Assembly (NCBI GenBank): GCA_016795185.1
Contig: JAEUIF010000490.1
Location: forward strand, 1 to 36,132
Origin: Planctomycetia bacterium
GTDB lineage: Bacteria > Planctomycetota > Planctomycetia > Gemmatales > Gemmataceae
Direction: 5' to 3'
DNA length: 36,132 nt
In this document: positions 14,023 through 25,886 of the stretch, piece after piece
Position numbering within the stretch: the first letter of the stretch is position 1
Layout of the letters: each line of letters starts with the position of its first letter
Notes under the pieces: model-generated
The model's database searches: none
What the model was told of the DNA's origin: nothing
Seen by the model: only the letters and a program-made list of their open reading frames with translations
Position numbers and translations under genes: made by a program

Positions 14023-15165
14023 CTACGGAGGGCCGGTTTTCCCCGCACGTCGCAGATATGCCGCCAGACCTGCTTGCATTTCCTCCCGGTGCGCCCGCAG
14101 CAAGCGTTCCACATCCAGCACGCTCGGCCGGTCCTTGCGCCGATTCCACGGCGGCCGCAGCCACCAGTCGTCCGCGCCCGCCGCTTGCAAGCGGAATTGC
14201 AGCAGCCGCGGCAAGCTCATGGTCACGAACAACGCCTGGGTCGTCCGCACGATCGGCTGTTCGGTCCAGGCCCGGCATTCCTCCCCGCCCAGGCGTTGCT
14301 TCAGGTCGCGGAAGCCGTCCTCCTGGCGAAAGCGGGCGCAGAACAGTTCGACCAGTTGCAGCCCACTCAGCCGGGTGGCCGAACTAACCAGATAGAAGCG
14401 TTCGTCGTAGTCCTCGACCTCGGCCACCACGGCTTTGACCGATTCATCATGGCCCAAGACGTGCCATTGGCAGAGCACCTCCTTCCAGCGGACCTGGCGG
14501 CGCCGGCCAGAGATAAAGGCCTGGCCGGTCCGCCAGCTTCCCGGCCAGCGGCCGCCCTGCCGCGGCGGTGGTAGCCGTTGGCCCCAGCGCGGGGTCGGCC
14601 CGCGCTGCCCCCGTCGCCGCTCCGTCGGTGGCAAGTGGTGCAAGCGCGCATCATGCCGCAGCCGGGTGAGGAAGTCGATCCGCGGTTCATGGGCCGGTGG
14701 GCGCACCAGGGGCCGCACCACGTTGCCGACGGCATAGGCGCCGTCGAACACGCCCAACTGCGGTCCCGGCGCACAGTGGGCCTGCCGGCGCAGCAGTTCG
14801 ACCACCAGGTCATTCTTGGTGCGGAACGCTTGCCCCGCCGGCAACTGGGATTGGCGGAAGTACAGCCGGCCGAACTCGGGCAGAAACCAAGCGGGTTGGT
14901 CCGGGTTCGCCAAGATAGCGCCGGCCACCACCCAGGTGTGGGCACGCACCGTGCTGGCGCGATTGGGACAGCGCGCCGTGTATTCGTGCAAGGTGCAGGC
15001 GCCCCAGACCCGCTGGCTGGTGCGATGCACCTTGGTGTCATCGACGCCGGTGATGCGGTAGCCGTGCCAGCACCGGCCGGGGGCGTCTTCGATCAGCTGG
15101 GCGAGGGTGTACTCGACCCAAGGTTGCTCCCAGCAGCCATACTCGACGAAGGATTCCAACGCCTT
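14023..15165 (-). mobile_element. IS4-family transposase segment (ends not resolved)
   Basis: This part of the chimeric ORF carries the DDE catalytic residues and YREK-like signature of IS4-family insertion sequences. The upstream limit is estimated from where DUF927 similarity stops (about residue 240). I could not find matching terminal inverted repeats or a target duplication, so the element may be truncated at its 5' end or joined by a deletion. Confidence 0.55.
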
Positions 15166-15885
15166 CCAGCCCTGCACCGTGGGCTCGTACTCGTGACCGG
15201 CGTCCTTGAGCAGCTTGCGCAGGTTGGCCGGCAGCAAGCCCAAGAACTCCCACGGGTCCTTGAGCGCCCTGGTCAGGCCGATTTGACTGGGGAGGTGGTC
15301 GCCGTCCCACCGGGCGGCCCAGCCGCTGGCAGGCCGACCCTGTTTGTCCTGCCGGCGGCCGAAGAACTGGTCCTGGTTGGCACACGCCCATTCCGCGACG
15401 TGCCGCAGCGCCTGCTCGGTCCGGTCGGCTTCCGACGCCGCCGAGGTGAGAGTCGTCCACAGGGCCTTGACCGGCGATTGGCTCAAGCCCTTCAAGCCCA
15501 GGGCCTTGGCCGCCAGCAGGCCCACCACGGTCAACGCGGCGAGCGCGTCGGCCAGTCGCATGACGACCGAGTTGCCCTGGGCCTTCTGGATGTAGCAGGC
15601 GCAGGCGCGGACGCGCCGCTGCCACTCCTGCCAAGTCGGCCAGCAATCACGGTGCGACAGCACGTACTCGATCAAGCGTGGTCCGGCGTGGCCGTAATTC
15701 AGCAGGATGCCCGTGCGCAGCGCCTCGACCAGCTTGCCGGTCTCCTCGTCGGCCTTGCCGAACGGCACGCCCCACAACGTCAACACCCGCGCCCGCGTGC
15801 CGCCGTCCTGGCTGAAGCTGGTGGCCGGGGCCTCGCCGCTGGTCAACAGCGCCATCGACCAGGTCAAGCTACGCTCGGCAGCCAT
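14023..15885 (-). CDS. Chimeric ORF: DUF927 C-terminal part fused to IS4-like transposase
   Basis: One open frame of 620 codons joins two unrelated pieces. Residues about 6-240 are the C-terminal part of a DUF927 (phage/plasmid primase-helicase-like) protein: SMALLTSGEAPATSFSQDGG, LNYGHAGPRLIEYVL and AWACANQDQFFGR-like stretches. From about residue 245 it is a DDE transposase with D282 (GVDDTKVHR), D381 (GVFDGAYAV) and E522. F515-R518-E522-K529 fits the Y(2)R(3)E(6)K signature of the IS4 family with Phe for Tyr. The transposase lacks a normal N-terminal region. The ATG at 15885 lies inside the inverted repeat of the MITE-like element just upstream, so the start is accidental. A functional product is doubtful. 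Confidence 0.75.
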   Translation of the reverse strand: MAAERSLTWSMALLTSGEAPATSFSQDGGTRARVLTLWGVPFGKADEETGKLVEALRTGILLNYGHAGPRLIEYVLSHRDCWPTWQEWQRRVRACACYIQKAQGNSVVMRLADALAALTVVGLLAAKALGLKGLSQSPVKALWTTLTSAASEADRTEQALRHVAEWACANQDQFFGRRQDKQGRPASGWAARWDGDHLPSQIGLTRALKDPWEFLGLLPANLRKLLKDAGHEYEPTVQGWKALESFVEYGCWEQPWVEYTLAQLIEDAPGRCWHGYRITGVDDTKVHRTSQRVWGACTLHEYTARCPNRASTVRAHTWVVAGAILANPDQPAWFLPEFGRLYFRQSQLPAGQAFRTKNDLVVELLRRQAHCAPGPQLGVFDGAYAVGNVVRPLVRPPAHEPRIDFLTRLRHDARLHHLPPTERRRGQRGPTPRWGQRLPPPRQGGRWPGSWRTGQAFISGRRRQVRWKEVLCQWHVLGHDESVKAVVAEVEDYDERFYLVSSATRLSGLQLVELFCARFRQEDGFRDLKQRLGGEECRAWTEQPIVRTTQALFVTMSLPRLLQFRLQAAGADDWWLRPPWNRRKDRPSVLDVERLLRAHREEMQAGLAAYLRRAGKTGPP

Positions 15886-16054: not shown

Positions 16055-17171
16055 GCTACGCTCGGTGCCCTTGGTGGTGCCGCGCCCGCGCCCCCGGCCG
16101 CTCGCGATGTCGTACAACACCTGGGGAATGTCGTCCTTGTTCTTGGCGACCTTGGTGTCGTCGAGGATGAGCGGCAAGTTGTGCAGCACGGCGGCACCGC
16201 GCTCGATCCACACGCGGCTGGAGTTCCAGGTCGTCAAGGCGGCGTCGGGCGCCTGCTCGTCGGGTTTGCCCCAGCAGCTGGCCAGCGCGCAAGGTGATGG
16301 TCTTGCCCTTGCTGCTCGGGCCGCACAGGTCCACGATGAAATTCTTGACGCCCAGGATCGACAGGAGCGGCGAGGCCAGCGACGCCAGCATGACCAGCTT
16401 GACCTTGGGGTACAGAAGCGCCGGCTCGATGGCTTTGGCCCACTCCTCGAACGTCCCCTCGGCATGGAAGCCGTCGACGATCTGCTCGTCGCCGCCGTCC
16501 GCGCCCTGGAAGAAGACTTGCTGCGCGTCGGGCTGCGACTCCTCGGCGGGGCCGATGTTCGCGAATGGGTCGTCCTCGGTGGCGGCGTGGCCGTGGGCAT
16601 CGATGCCGCCGAGGAACACGCGCAGCAAGGAGCGACCCCAGAGGAAGCCGGACTTCGCGTTGTCCACCCAGCCCAGCTGCCGCCGAACCTGGATCTGCGG
16701 CAGCAAGTGCAAGTTCACGGACTCGAACTGCGCCAGGTAGTCGATCATCGGGTCGGCGTTACCGGTCGTGACCGCCAGGCCGTGGTCGGCGCGGTCAATG
16801 ATGCGGTGCTTGGCGGCGATCTCCGAGCGGGCGACGCCGTGGGTCTTCCAGTTGCCGTTGCGCTTCCAGGCCAACTCGACGGCGACGGTGTCCTCGGCGT
16901 CGTTGACCATCAGCCGGGTGATGACCAGCGGCATCGAGCAAACCCGCAGGTCCTCCTGGCCTTTGCACACCTTGGCTAGGCCGCGGGGACCGAGCAGCCA
17001 GTTCGGCGGGGTGACCGCCTGCGTCGGGACGGGTGCGTCGGGAAGCGTGGTCTGCACCAGAGCCAGGTTGACCTGCCCCGTACCAGCAGAGGCAGTCCCC
17101 TGGTTGAAGTCCTTGGTGGCGATGGCGTCCTTGACGAAGATGTCCCAGTCTTTCCTTGGCAGTCCCGGGAG
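16055..17171 (-). pseudogene. DUF927 (primase/helicase-like) gene, N-terminal part, broken
   Basis: A remnant of a mobile-element replication protein of the DUF927 type, an ATPase domain found in plasmid and phage primase-helicases. The first frame, open from codon LPGLPRKDW at 17171 and with a possible GTG start at 17057, reaches Walker A GPSSKGKTITLR. The frame is then lost near 16285 (net -2 or +1). The second frame carries WGKPDEQAPDAALTTWNSSR, the Walker B-like LPLILDDTK and DIASGRGRGRGTTKGTERS. There the MITE-like element interrupts the gene, and the remaining C-terminal part follows as the start of the chimeric transposase ORF. Frameshift, insertion and loss of its own C-terminus make function very unlikely. 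Confidence 0.82.
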
Positions 17172-19567: not shown

Positions 19568-20989
19568 ATGCCGCGCAAGCCCAAGATCGAGAAGCAGACC
19601 ATCCAGGTGATCGTCAACAACAAGCCGGTGGCGGTCACACTGTTTCCGCCGACGGCCACGCGGCGCATCTGGTACGCCTACTGGCCGGGCCTGAAGTTCA
19701 GCAAGAGCACCGGGCAGACCACGCTGGCCGATGCTATCGTCGCTGCCGAGAACATGGTCAAGAACGGCGGCCAGAAGGTAACGGTGGCGGACGCCCTGAT
19801 GTCGGACGAGGAGTTCGAGGCGATCCAGCGGCGGCACTTCAGCAAGAAGACCGATCCGGCGGCCCAGGCACGGGCGGCAAAGACCTTGGAAGACTGCCTG
19901 GATGCCATCACCGCCTTTCGAGACATTACGGGTCTCAAGCCGATCACCCTGGCCACACCGGACGATTGTGAGCGCTTCCAACAACAGGCCCAAACGCTGC
20001 CGAAGAACTGGCGACAGAAGCACCTCAATAGCAAGTCAAGCGTTGGTCTACTGAGCCCAAACACGGTGCTGAAATGGTCCCGCTCCTTGCAGGCCGCCTT
20101 CGAGCGGGTCAATCGATCAGGGGGTCGTAAGTGCGTGCGGGGAGTGGTGGACCAGCAGAAGTTGCTGGGCGGCAATCCCTGGAATCAGTTCACCTGGATT
20201 GGTGGCACGAACAAGCCAATCCGTCAATTTGATCACGTTGAACTTCTGTCGCTGCTCGATCATTTCCAGAACCATTGGCCAGAAATCAGCGTGGGACCAT
20301 TGGTTGCGAAGGTGTGCCTGTGGTCTTGGAGCCGGCGTGAAGAGGTTATGAGCTTACAGTGGTCAATGTTGCGGACGGTTGACGACGAGCGTCACTTTGA
20401 AATTGAAGGCAAACGCGGCGTCAAGAAGTGGTTCCGCGTTCCGGACGGCCTGTTCGGCGAGTTGGTGAAGACAAGAAGCGACAGCCCATTCGTGTTCGCT
20501 GCTTACACCGAGCAGATCAAGCGCTACTTCGAGAACAGCAAGACCCCGGGACCGGCAAAAAACGTCGAAGGTCAGTTCAAGCCCGAAAACCTGGGCAACT
20601 GGTTTTACAAGAAGCTCGTGAAGTGGTCGCAGACACTGCCCAAGGGGAAGGCCACGATACATGTGTTCCGGAAGACGAGCTTACAGTACGCTCGTGCTGG
20701 AGAGGACGTGAATCGCCAGGTCGCGGCGGATGCCAAACTGGGCGAGGCGGTGATGACCACACACTACGTTCGGGAATCAGACGTGCAAATGCGCAACGCC
20801 AGCAATCGGACCTTCCACCGCATTCTGGCCAGCCTGCCCTCGCCGGTAGCAGCCCGCTACGGTCACGTCGAACCCCAGCGCACCGACTTGGAGAAGCGAC
20901 TGGATGAAGCCAGGACCTCGAAGAACTGGGAACTGGTGACCCGGTTGTCGAACGAGTTGATCAGATGCGGAAGAGGTACAACGGGATAG
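19568..20989 (+). CDS. Tyrosine recombinase (integrase)
   Basis: A 473-residue integrase that would recombine the element with its chromosomal site. Catalytic residues visible are an Arg in WSRREEVMSLQW (R256/R257), Lys in the beta-hairpin GKRGVKKWFRVP, the H-x-x-R box H365-VF-R368 in IHVFRKTSLQY, and the nucleophile Y400 in TTHYVRES, 32 residues after R368 as is usual. The N-terminal part (FRDITGLKPITLATPDD, KNWRQKHLNSKSSVGLLSPN) fits a SAM-like core-binding domain. GGAGGAG precedes the ATG. The gene ends 193 bases from the 3' end of a tRNA-Arg gene, a typical integration target. All active-site residues are present. Confidence 0.93.
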   Translation: MPRKPKIEKQTIQVIVNNKPVAVTLFPPTATRRIWYAYWPGLKFSKSTGQTTLADAIVAAENMVKNGGQKVTVADALMSDEEFEAIQRRHFSKKTDPAAQARAAKTLEDCLDAITAFRDITGLKPITLATPDDCERFQQQAQTLPKNWRQKHLNSKSSVGLLSPNTVLKWSRSLQAAFERVNRSGGRKCVRGVVDQQKLLGGNPWNQFTWIGGTNKPIRQFDHVELLSLLDHFQNHWPEISVGPLVAKVCLWSWSRREEVMSLQWSMLRTVDDERHFEIEGKRGVKKWFRVPDGLFGELVKTRSDSPFVFAAYTEQIKRYFENSKTPGPAKNVEGQFKPENLGNWFYKKLVKWSQTLPKGKATIHVFRKTSLQYARAGEDVNRQVAADAKLGEAVMTTHYVRESDVQMRNASNRTFHRILASLPSPVAARYGHVEPQRTDLEKRLDEARTSKNWELVTRLSNELIRCGRGTTG

Positions 20990-21850: not shown

Positions 21851-24800
21851 CTACGGCAGCGGCGCGGCCTCCAGTTGTTTGGCCTTTTCCCGGTCGGCGT
21901 CGGCCTGGGCCTTGTCGCCCTTCGCCTCATAGCTCTTGGCACGGTTGAGATAGGCGATGGCGTAGCGCTCGTTGAGCTTGATGGCCTGGTTGAAATCTTC
22001 GATCGCCTCGTCGTGCTTCTTGTCGGCGGCCTTGGCCACGCCGCGGTTGTTCCAGGCGATGGCGAACCTCGGGCTTAGCTTGATCGCCTCGTCGTAGTCC
22101 CGCATGGCGTCGTCAAACTTCTTCTGATCGAAGTACGCCAATCCCCGGCCGTTGTAGGCGGCCGCGTAGCGTTCGTTGAGCCGGATCGCCTCGGTGAAGT
22201 CCTTGATGGCCTCGGCCGGCTTCCGCTGCTCGCGCAGGATCGTGCCGCGCTGATAGTACGCCTGGGCGTCCTTGGGGTTCAGTTGCAGCGCGCGGTCGAA
22301 ATCGCGCGCGGCGGCCACGCTATCCTCGCCCTGGTTCCGGGTCCGGTACGCCAGGCCGCGATTGAACCAGACATCCGCCGTCTTGTCGTGCAGGTCGAGC
22401 GAACGGGTGTAATCGGCGATGGCCTGGTCGAAGTCCCGCTGTGCCGCGCGGACCAGGCCCCGGCTGTTGTAGGTCGGAGCGAAATCGGGATCGAGTTGGA
22501 TGGCGCGGTCGTAGTTCTTCAAAGTCTCCGTGAAGTCGGGCTTTGGCTTCCTTCGTTCCTGGCGGTAGAGGATGTCGCCGAGGTAGTCGCACGCGGTGGC
22601 TGTCGCCGGATCGACCTTCAGGGCCCGTTCGCAGTCGGCCCGCGCTTCGTCCAGCTTGTCGAGGTGATACGCCGCCACGGCGCGCTGCAAGTAGGCATCG
22701 ACGAGACCCGGATGCTGCTTGAGGATGGCGCTGAAGTCATCCCACGCCTGGCCGTTCTCGCCGTCCGCCAGCGCTTTGCGGCCGCGCTGCCAGCGCTCGG
22801 CGACGCTCCGATCCACGCTCACCAGGGGCAGCGCCCGCGATGCCGTGCCGACGAGCACCGGCTGCTGGCTGGCTTGCTGCTCCTTGCGGGCCGTCGCGAC
22901 GGTTTCCCGAGTGACGTACTTTTCCAGTTCGCCCAGCGTCACGGTCTGGTCCTGGTTCTCATCCGCCGCGCCCAACAGGCCGTCGCGGATGAAAGCGTAA
23001 AACAGGCCGTGCCGCTGGTCGTTGAAAGTGTAGCTGCGTTCGCCCGCCGCCGCGCTGAAGTACACCGCCGCGCCTTCCGGCGTCGCTTTTTCCTGCGCGC
23101 GCAGCGGCGCTAGTTCGGCGACGCCTTCGATCCGCGAACCATCGAGCCACAGCACCTTGGCCCCGGCGGCGGATTGCTCGAACTCGCGGTAAATCTCGGC
23201 CAGTGGCACCAGAGTCGCCCGATCCGCCAGGCGCGCGCCGGCGGGACAGAAGTACGCCTCGTCGCCGTTGCGGAACTGGACGACCTGGCCGGCCAGCGCC
23301 ACCAGCACCACATCGGCCTTGTTGCGGCCGCACAGCAGGGTTTGCAGGGATTTGCGGAGGTTGGCGGCCGACGGTTGCCAGCGGGTGTCGGCCGTGCCGC
23401 GCGCTTCGGTCAGCACGGCCACATCGTCGGCGCGGAACCCGCCCACGCCCAGCGCCGCCGCCAGGGAAGCCATGTCCGACTCGGCAAAGCGGAAGGCCGG
23501 CAGTTCCTTGCCGTAGCCGCGCACGCCGACCAGCAGCGCGTAGGACCGGCCCACGGGCGGTGGAGTCGTGCCCGTCGGCCGGGTCGTCTTGTCGGTGCTC
23601 GCGCCGGTGGGGCGCGGGTCGCTGCCGCTGCGTCGTTTCAGCGCGTAGCGAAACTCCGGCGGCGACTCGCTGGTCTTGACCTCGAGGTCTTCCTCGATGA
23701 CGTGGTGATTGTCGAGCACCAGCCGTAAGCGATGCTTCCCCGGCGACAGATCGAGCTGCGCGTTCGTGGTTTGCGGTTGCTGGCGGTCGTCGATGAAGAT
23801 GGTCGCTCCCGCGGGGTCGGAGACGATCTTCACCAGCTGCCCGCCGGCCGGCGGTTCCTCATCTTCCGACAGGAAGAAGATGATCGCCGGCAGCAGGATC
23901 AGAGCGCAGAGTGGATACAGGATCCACGGGTTCTTGAGCTTGAGATTGATCCAGTCTTTCGAGAACGGCTTCGGTTCGGGGACCGTCCGGCTCGCTCCCG
24001 CCGGCCGCGCCGGCGGTGGCGGTCGAAACGGTGCGGGCGCGGGCGTCGGCGGGGTGGGCTTGGGCGGCAGCGGGTTGCGAAAATCGGCCGGCAAGCTGAT
24101 GGTCGGCTGTGTCGAACCATCCTCCGCGTCGCCGACGGCGCCGCCGATCAGCGAACCGGCGGCAGTCGCCGAGGCGGACGGCGGCGGTTCGACCAGCACC
24201 AGCGGCCGGTCTTCCAGGTCTTGCAGCGCGGCCGCCGCGCTGGCGTAGCGCTGCCCCGCTTCCTTCGCCGTCAGCTGGTCGATGACCCGCGCCAGGTCGG
24301 GCGGCAGGCCGGGAACCAATTCACCGGCGGCGGGCAGCCGTTCGCCGCGCGAACCGTGCAGCCGCAGCCAGCCCAGTTCGGGATCGACCGCATCCTTGCC
24401 GACGCCCTTGAACAGCGAATCGAAGCGCGGCCCGACCAGCAGTTCCAGGGCCGAGAAGCCCAGGCAGTAGAGATCGACGCCCGGCCCGATGGCCCCGAAT
24501 TCGCCGTTGAGTAGTTCGGGCGCGAGGTACTTCTGGCTGCCGGACGGTTTGCGGACTTCCCCGCCGACCGGAATGCCGGCGGGGTCGCTGAGCTTGACGC
24601 GGCCCTTGTCGCTGATGAGCAGGTTGCTCGGCTTGACCGCGCCGTGCAGCCGGTTCTGTTCGTGCAGGAACTGCAAGCCTTCCAGGCACTGGCGCAGGAT
24701 GCTGCGCACCAGCGGTGCCGGCAGCGCTCCCTCGGCCGCGCGGGCGGCCAGGTTGCCGGCCATCAGTTCCATGATGATCCAGCCGCGCTCTTGATCCAGG

Positions 24801-25015
24801 GCGTAAATCTGCACGATGTTGTCGTGCTCAAGGTTCGCCAGGAACTGGGCTTCCTCCCAGAACTGCTGCATCTGGCGGGGGTCTTGCTGAAAGTGCTCGT
24901 GAATCTCCTTGACGGCCACGAAGCGCTTCAGCGCCAGGTCGCGCGCCCGATACACCGTGGCCAGATTGCCCCGGCCGATCTCGGACAGCAGCTCGAAATT
25001 GGGGTGACTTTTCAT
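21851..25015 (-). CDS. Membrane-anchored pseudokinase / pseudocaspase-like TPR protein
   Basis: A 1054-residue protein. Residues 1-270 have the Hanks-type kinase fold: GRGNLATV loop, K36 (VAVK), APE box KYLAPELL. The catalytic HRD loop is H124-G-A-V-K-P-S-N with Ala for Asp, and DFG is D144-P-A. A Pro-rich linker leads to one membrane helix (about 362-382), then a PEGA domain (394-447). A caspase-like domain follows (about 490-720, SYALLVGVRGYG). Its expected GHG reads G576-Q-V and its expected D-x-C reads D625-G-S627, so both catalytic residues are gone. At least eight TPR-like repeats (about 745-1050) complete it. ATG at 25015 is chosen over a TTG two codons upstream because GGAGG fits. Probably a signalling scaffold with the repeats outside. 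Confidence 0.88.
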   Translation of the reverse strand: MKSHPNFELLSEIGRGNLATVYRARDLALKRFVAVKEIHEHFQQDPRQMQQFWEEAQFLANLEHDNIVQIYALDQERGWIIMELMAGNLAARAAEGALPAPLVRSILRQCLEGLQFLHEQNRLHGAVKPSNLLISDKGRVKLSDPAGIPVGGEVRKPSGSQKYLAPELLNGEFGAIGPGVDLYCLGFSALELLVGPRFDSLFKGVGKDAVDPELGWLRLHGSRGERLPAAGELVPGLPPDLARVIDQLTAKEAGQRYASAAAALQDLEDRPLVLVEPPPSASATAAGSLIGGAVGDAEDGSTQPTISLPADFRNPLPPKPTPPTPAPAPFRPPPPARPAGASRTVPEPKPFSKDWINLKLKNPWILYPLCALILLPAIIFFLSEDEEPPAGGQLVKIVSDPAGATIFIDDRQQPQTTNAQLDLSPGKHRLRLVLDNHHVIEEDLEVKTSESPPEFRYALKRRSGSDPRPTGASTDKTTRPTGTTPPPVGRSYALLVGVRGYGKELPAFRFAESDMASLAAALGVGGFRADDVAVLTEARGTADTRWQPSAANLRKSLQTLLCGRNKADVVLVALAGQVVQFRNGDEAYFCPAGARLADRATLVPLAEIYREFEQSAAGAKVLWLDGSRIEGVAELAPLRAQEKATPEGAAVYFSAAAGERSYTFNDQRHGLFYAFIRDGLLGAADENQDQTVTLGELEKYVTRETVATARKEQQASQQPVLVGTASRALPLVSVDRSVAERWQRGRKALADGENGQAWDDFSAILKQHPGLVDAYLQRAVAAYHLDKLDEARADCERALKVDPATATACDYLGDILYRQERRKPKPDFTETLKNYDRAIQLDPDFAPTYNSRGLVRAAQRDFDQAIADYTRSLDLHDKTADVWFNRGLAYRTRNQGEDSVAAARDFDRALQLNPKDAQAYYQRGTILREQRKPAEAIKDFTEAIRLNERYAAAYNGRGLAYFDQKKFDDAMRDYDEAIKLSPRFAIAWNNRGVAKAADKKHDEAIEDFNQAIKLNERYAIAYLNRAKSYEAKGDKAQADADREKAKQLEAAPLP

Positions 25016-25214: not shown

Positions 25215-25886
25215 ATGTTCAAACAACTCAAGCAACTGCTTGATTTTTCCGGGAAGAGCAAGCGAGCGGATCAGCCCGTCGCGGTGCTGGGCCGTCTGCA
25301 ACGCGCCTGCGCCCAACAAGCGGTGGATCGGGAACGCCGAATCCAGCTAAAGTCTGGTGCCACCGCGCCGGCGGATCGTCCGGTCAGGGCCGCGCACGAG
25401 ACGCAGCTGGATATCGAACGGACGCCGTGCGCTGCCGCCGAGGCCATCGCCCGTCGCACGGACAACGATACGCGAGTGGTCGTCCGTCAGCAACTGCCGG
25501 AACCCGTGCCGACACCCGCTGGGCCGTCGCTGCTACAGCGCGTGCGGACCTGGTTCCGGGGGCCGGAGGTCATTCGCGCCGAGCGCCGCCAGGCGCCCCG
25601 GCATCCCTTCGGCCGCCTGCACCCGCACATGCGCGCCCTGGTCGGGCCGTGCAAATGGCCGGCGCAGGTCACGGACGTTTCCGCCACCGGCATCGGCCTG
25701 ATTATCGGCATGCGTCACCGGCTGGGTGCCGACTTGCAGCTGACGATCCAGGACCGCAGCCGGGGCAGCGCCTATCCGATCAAATCGAAGGTGAAGCGCC
25801 TGGCCCTGCGGCCGGACGGCACCTGGTTCACCTGCTGTGCCTTCGACCGTCCGCTCGATGAAGCGGGGTTGAAGTCGATGTTGTAG
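25215..25886 (+). CDS. PilZ-domain protein (c-di-GMP binding)
   Basis: A 223-residue cytoplasmic protein. The first 115 residues are of low complexity and unrecognised, with a helical start (MFKQLKQLLDFSGKSKRADQ). The C-terminal 105 residues are a PilZ domain with both c-di-GMP motifs intact: RxxxR as R125-QAP-R129 and DxSxxG as D154-V-S-A-T-G159, followed by the beta-barrel segment GLIIGMRHRLGADLQLTI. It should respond to cyclic di-GMP. It is divergent from the pseudokinase gene with a 199-bp gap between, and GAGGCAG precedes the ATG. Confidence 0.85.
   Translation: MFKQLKQLLDFSGKSKRADQPVAVLGRLQRACAQQAVDRERRIQLKSGATAPADRPVRAAHETQLDIERTPCAAAEAIARRTDNDTRVVVRQQLPEPVPTPAGPSLLQRVRTWFRGPEVIRAERRQAPRHPFGRLHPHMRALVGPCKWPAQVTDVSATGIGLIIGMRHRLGADLQLTIQDRSRGSAYPIKSKVKRLALRPDGTWFTCCAFDRPLDEAGLKSML

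Follow-up and report, generated by a model that had tools for sequence, protein, structure and literature searches.

A planctomycete transmembrane protein combining a pseudokinase with a caspase-like domain that lacks its dyad, and its kinase family, often beside Tad-type genes

Organization of the locus and of the encoded protein

The stretch of planctomycete DNA analyzed here (the window, 36,132 nucleotides of contig JAEUIF010000490.1) holds at positions 21851-25015 a complete coding sequence of 1054 amino acids, read on the minus strand from an ATG at 25015 to a stop at 21851. The sequence GGAGG lies at 25027-25023, 7 nt before the ATG on that strand, and G+C at codon position 3 of the frame is 0.86. 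An initial annotation of this DNA had placed kinase-like, membrane helix, PEGA, caspase-like and TPR regions in a single frame of 1054 residues; all are present and the extent of the frame was right, the strand needing correction to minus. From the N-terminus, and all on the minus strand, the protein comprises a kinase-like domain (residues 6-270; 24206-25000) in which the Pfam Pkinase match (PF00069, 1.2e-32) spans residues 7-196, a Pro/Ala-rich linker evident from the sequence (residues 276-358; 23942-24190), a single transmembrane helix recognized by eye (residues 363-382; 23870-23929), a PEGA domain (residues 395-456; 23648-23833; PF08308, 2.4e-05), a caspase-like domain (residues 488-724; 22844-23554), and a TPR array (residues about 757-1050; 21866-22747; Pfam TPR_1, 1.2e-48). 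The Pkinase, PEGA and TPR matches are all above the Pfam cut-offs, and the PknB/StkP-type model NF033483 matches below its cut-off (E 5e-39). Matches to the anti-phage defence kinases MAD6 and PD-T4-6 in PADLOC and NCBIfam cover chiefly the kinase domain, that of the MAD6 NCBIfam model being below cut-off, and no defence gene was noticed among the neighbours. Basic residues precede the transmembrane helix and acidic residues follow it, and the protein is predicted to be oriented N-in/C-out.

A PilZ-domain gene (PF07238, 2.1e-05) at 25215-25886 on the plus strand is divergent from the pseudokinase gene. On the downstream side lie a DDE transposase-like gene (14023-15885, minus), a DUF927 gene (16056-17057, minus), and a gene that by eye resembles a tyrosine recombinase, without a Pfam match (19568-20989, plus), which together suggest a mobile-element region.

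Structure profiles matched the kinase-like domain to StkP and MARK3, and alignment to the HRD loop of MARK3 places the catalytic loop at HGAVKPSN (residues 124-131; 24623-24646). The catalytic base Asp of HRD is replaced by Ala126 (codon gcg) and the Arg by Gly. By residue alignment the DFG region reads SDPAG (residues 143-147; 24575-24589), so that DFG has become DPA, with metal-binding Asp144 retained and Phe and Gly lost. The description of this domain as a kinase without catalytic residues thus holds for the HRD Asp and for DFG, but not for Lys36 of beta3 (VAVK), alpha-C Glu55, loop Asn131 and Asp144, all of which are intact; APE and the alpha-F Asp are also present. Set against the criteria for an active Ser/Thr kinase, the beta3 Lys is present, the HRD Asp absent and DFG incomplete, and loss of the HRD Asp places the domain within the published definition of a pseudokinase, in which at least one of Lys, HRD Asp and DFG Asp is missing (PMC12599244). 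Chance does not account for the HGA/DPA degeneracy, since the HRD Asp is kept in 39 of 40 other kinases of the same genome, a sample of those most similar to the window kinase whose rate is only a guide, and since the same residues occur in the independent assembly of a second genome, G081, described below. Identity of the kinase residues in G081 also rules out sequencing or assembly error behind the kinase losses. Another kinase of the window genome (L223; G000:C1219:2500-3722) reads HGQLHPSN and NLG, and is probably a second pseudokinase.

The caspase-like domain was recognized by NCBIfam NF047832 (3e-10, below cut-off) and by a family profile (2e-49) that has the window domain itself among its seed rows; Pfam C14 gave no match to the window protein at 1e-3, and the G081 relative passes PF00656 (4.7e-15). 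A profile of 15 caspase-like domains, that of the window included, matched MALT1 and metacaspase structures at 7e-16 to 1e-10, with AGHG and DMC of MALT1 aligned to SGHG and DAC of the relatives. With the dyad columns fixed in this manner from intact relatives plus MALT1, the catalytic His is found to be replaced by Gln577 (AGQV; 23285-23287) and the Cys by Ser627 (LDGSR; 23135-23137), as the initial annotation had it. C562, C590 and H669 are the only His or Cys residues in the domain, and none stands in a dyad column. Displacement of catalytic residues was considered and rejected: the alignments revealed no candidate Asp, His or Cys close to either the kinase or the caspase site, and the window protein reads DGS where other family members have DC[ST], with a Cys next to the catalytic column. 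With its dyad absent, the putative p20-like domain corresponds to a pseudo-orthocaspase. Single-sequence AlphaFold prediction of it reached a pLDDT of 34 and was unusable.

Relatives and the degenerate kinase branch

Searched with the kinase domain, 95 genomes of the bacterial family gave matches far above background in just two, the window genome and G081, which belongs to another genus; the match in G081 is 1.1e-114, and the next best, 8e-33, represents ordinary kinases. A homologue in a genome of the same genus (G001) is cut by a contig end and retains only the TPR part, 74% identical, and searches of genome contigs, viral contigs and plasmids returned no full-length relative. The G081 protein, P0002 (L090:2912-6991), has 1360 amino acids in the order FHA, degenerate kinase, kinase, transmembrane helix, caspase-like domain and TPR, with no PEGA detected. 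Its first kinase is degenerate (HRNVCPRA, LGS), and its second, with HGAIKPTN and SDPAG, is 62-63% identical to the window kinase, so the loop HGA[VI]KP[ST]N is kept across the two genera. The P0002 caspase-like domain retains the His (VGHT) and has Gly in place of the Cys (MDTGR), making this frame a triple pseudoenzyme with two degenerate kinases and a Cys-less caspase-like domain. No other full-length relative that carries all three of kinase, caspase and TPR was found in the degenerate clade. Losses confined to the window protein, with orthologues intact, are thus not what is seen for the kinase and for the caspase Cys, which are shared with G081; the His, by contrast, is missing from the window protein and retained in G081.

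At a threshold of E below 1e-37, homologues were found in 72 of 398 sampled genomes of the class, and a phylum-wide sample contained no family member outside the class. Catalytic Asp and DFG are intact in 55 members, and are not in 18, the window protein included. All 18 kinase-degenerate members formed one clade in a quick tree (SH-aLRT 98). In a more careful tree, reduced by dropping long branches and thinning the active rows, the 12 degenerate members kept formed one clade (99/97) in 200 of 200 bootstraps, standing beside the active clade and with the window protein inside. A recent loss in the kinase is rejected by these trees. The APE Glu and alpha-F Asp are invariant in 18/18 degenerate members, and two genomes (G267 and G384) each carry one active and one degenerate copy. 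Over the degenerate kinase domains of three other pairs, dN/dS was 0.03, 0.05 and 0.17; the low kinase values thus come from relatives, the window gene having been measured over its TPR part only (0.24). As judged from these alignments and trees, the kinase loss is ancient and maintained, and it defines a branch of related proteins.

Survival of Lys36, Glu55, Asn131 and Asp144 makes residual or unusual transferase chemistry possible. Other transfer reactions, such as AMPylation or glutamylation, are known for the pseudokinases SelO and SidJ. That the kinase domain still catalyses, phosphorylating weakly in the absence of the HRD base or carrying out such a transfer, would agree with these residues, with the loop kept in two genera, and with the precedent of SidJ (PMC6858067). 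But the Asp to Ala change and the loss of the DFG Phe and Gly are found in both genera, and the degenerate clade overall drifts at Lys, Asn and the DFG Asp, which would be unexpected under one conserved chemistry, leaving catalysis an improbable explanation. Little likelihood is also given to a relaxed remnant, that is, to enzymes decaying after loss of function and retained just for binding by TPR and PEGA. Here the caspase domains of the window and G081 are more diverged (40% identity) than the kinases, and of these two proteins only that of the window has lost the His; against it are the long frame without a stop, the low dN/dS of the three other degenerate-kinase pairs, and the 62-63% identity of the kinase between genera.

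About 48 active members are fusions of kinase, transmembrane helix and caspase-like domain, the kinase motifs of this fusion family being HGD[IV]KPxN and GDFGL. In an alignment of 50 fused caspase domains that includes those of the window protein and G081, 40 lack the Cys (15 with Ser, 12 with Thr, others besides) and 12 lack the His. Loss of the Cys on this scale indicates that caspase inactivation is common in the family and independent of kinase loss; some active members, such as L146, retain both His and Cys. In L140, L141, L143, L148, L156, L172 and others, DC[ST] replaces DxC, which puts a Cys one position ahead of the catalytic column. The extracytoplasmic part is variable across the degenerate clade, being caspase plus TPR in the window protein and G081, FGE-sulfatase in L136-L138 and L152, PEGA without a further Pfam domain in L134, and Ig/TPR in L176. 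In a free tree the caspase domain of the window groups with stand-alone caspase proteins, apart from the fused ones, and it may be a separate acquisition, though with p=0.15 in an AU test the alternative of vertical descent from the active fusion family is not rejected.

Two other arrangements were noted. A 917-amino acid frame (L091/L013, G036) is a separate fusion, in which an intact PknB-type kinase (HRDLKPSN, DFG) is followed by a transmembrane helix, a beta domain and finally a caspase-like domain with the His lost (CGRE) and the Cys kept (DACR). A frame of 1114 amino acids (L099, G012:C1109) has the reverse domain order, with an intact-looking caspase (AGHG, DCC) ahead of two kinases, the first degenerate (HGGIKPSN) and the second intact (HRDLKPGN).

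Gene neighbourhood and proposed function

Clustering of neighbouring genes, together with profiles, showed that the family, in both clades, recurrently adjoins genes for an FHA-TadA-like T2SSE ATPase (the TadA-like assignment resting on a profile match below cut-off), two T2SSF proteins of TadB/TadC type, and FHA proteins. A T2SSE ATPase lies within 5 kb at 20/55 active, 12/17 degenerate and 0/16 control loci, counts that are lower bounds because some contigs end within the 5 kb. The four genomes checked hold 2-5 such ATPases each, from which our own arithmetic gives a chance expectation of about 1%. The ATPases differ in part between the two clades. At eight degenerate loci (L134-L137, L201, L203-L205) a shorter TadA-like ATPase is near or adjoining the kinase gene, the full order ATPase-TadB-TadC-FHA-kinase is kept at L176, L188 and L197, and in G081 a C-terminal piece of TadC and an FHA gene are directly upstream of P0002. 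Close to one Tad-pseudokinase operon is a caspase-like frame reading YYSGHGG (L176:2-823, plus strand, G138).

The reading preferred here, given about an even chance, is that the protein would be a non-catalytic transmembrane binding receptor of a family tied to a Tad-type machine. The cytoplasmic pseudokinase, with several nucleotide-site residues kept, could provide a switchable docking surface. One transmembrane helix would connect it to the PEGA, caspase-like and TPR regions outside the cytoplasm, which, the caspase-like domain being dead as a protease, would hold a ligand, a peptide or partner proteins and not cleave them. Its partners would probably be the FHA proteins and the TadA/TadB/TadC machine. 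We infer for the window protein this binding function, this topology and these partners, together with a Tad relation that persists in its genome. A scaffold or sensor that works by binding, as had been proposed at the outset, fits the old loss and the purifying selection on the degenerate kinase fold of the relatives, and binding is probably how the protein works.

The linkage in relatives could instead be ancestral, with the receptor scaffold now in another pathway and no longer related to the Tad machine. No Tad or FHA gene accompanies the window gene within the 36-kb contig, only 2 of the 95 genomes have a clear kinase match (plus the truncated homologue in G001), and the partner domain after the transmembrane helix varies in the clade. 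On the other side, homologues of TadA, TadB-TadC and FHA persist on other contigs of the window genome, where their local arrangement is only partly visible because several of these contigs are short, and a receptor detached from the Tad machine is considered unlikely.

The initial annotation also raised a stress or death-like pathway, which gained no support, the only functional context found being the Tad-type cluster with FHA genes. In its specific form, a scaffold whose dead caspase-like domain would act on the cell's active caspase-like proteases as a decoy or an inhibitor, this explanation could draw on the caspase-like genes with an intact dyad that the window genome also encodes (e.g., L056, L057) and on a cyanobacterial pseudo-orthocaspase tied to oxidative stress (PMC7889975). 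It is very improbable, as the genes that recur in linkage are of Tad type, the family proteins and neighbours examined showed no noticeable death or NTPase-conflict domain, and the predicted topology sets the caspase domain outside the cytoplasm.

Beyond the receptor tied to the Tad machine, a wider scheme is offered tentatively and with some doubt. Throughout planctomycetes, a Tad-type machine might be regulated via FHA by a transmembrane kinase with a non-cleaving caspase-like sensor, and in the sister branch the kinase might be dead as well, retained for allosteric regulation or as a scaffold, giving the double pseudoenzyme of the window and the triple one of G081.

Comparison with known systems

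Pseudokinases (PMC12599244) and pseudo-orthocaspases (PMC6426788, PMC3501461) are both known kinds. The bacterial STK pseudokinases ActPs1-3, DLHK, GLW, CP1 and DYD (PMC12599244) share the fold without canonical residues and several are membrane-anchored; compared by printed motifs, they differ from the window kinase, in which Lys, Asn and the DFG Asp are kept and the HRD Asp is lost. The main text of that review makes no mention of planctomycetes or caspase. Receptor kinases of PknB/StkP type resemble the window protein in having a cytoplasmic kinase, a single transmembrane helix and an extracellular sensor domain, but no PASTA domains were found in the window protein and the catalytic base is absent. 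Pseudo-orthocaspases likewise have a caspase-like domain without the His-Cys dyad, with cases beside TPRs described (PMC6426788), and those reported are mainly alphaproteobacterial and cyanobacterial; among planctomycete caspase homologues the dyad is kept in only 64% (PMC3501461). The passages searched describe no caspase-like domain fused to a transmembrane pseudokinase. Nor were the degenerate planctomycete branch, the caspase-like fusion and the Tad linkage, or a published family of active kinase-transmembrane-caspase fusions, found in the open-access papers searched, subscription journals being outside the scope of the search.

This active fusion family resembles the window protein in its kinase (mostly 40-47% identical), single transmembrane helix and extracytoplasmic caspase-like domain, and the recurrent Tad/FHA neighbourhood is common to it and to the degenerate clade. 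It differs in having a complete set of catalytic kinase residues in almost every member, other domains instead of PEGA, and caspase domains on a branch separate from that of the window, though subject to the AU result given above. The family's caspase-fold domains are suggested to be mostly non-proteolytic, although bacterial homologues of caspases are usually taken for death proteases, and gene order ties them to a pilus or secretion-type machine in organisms whose kinomes are very large and mostly unstudied. In summary, the degenerate branch consists of bacterial pseudokinases that are old and maintained by selection, and its active sister in the same class allows loss of catalysis to be studied as a regulatory innovation.
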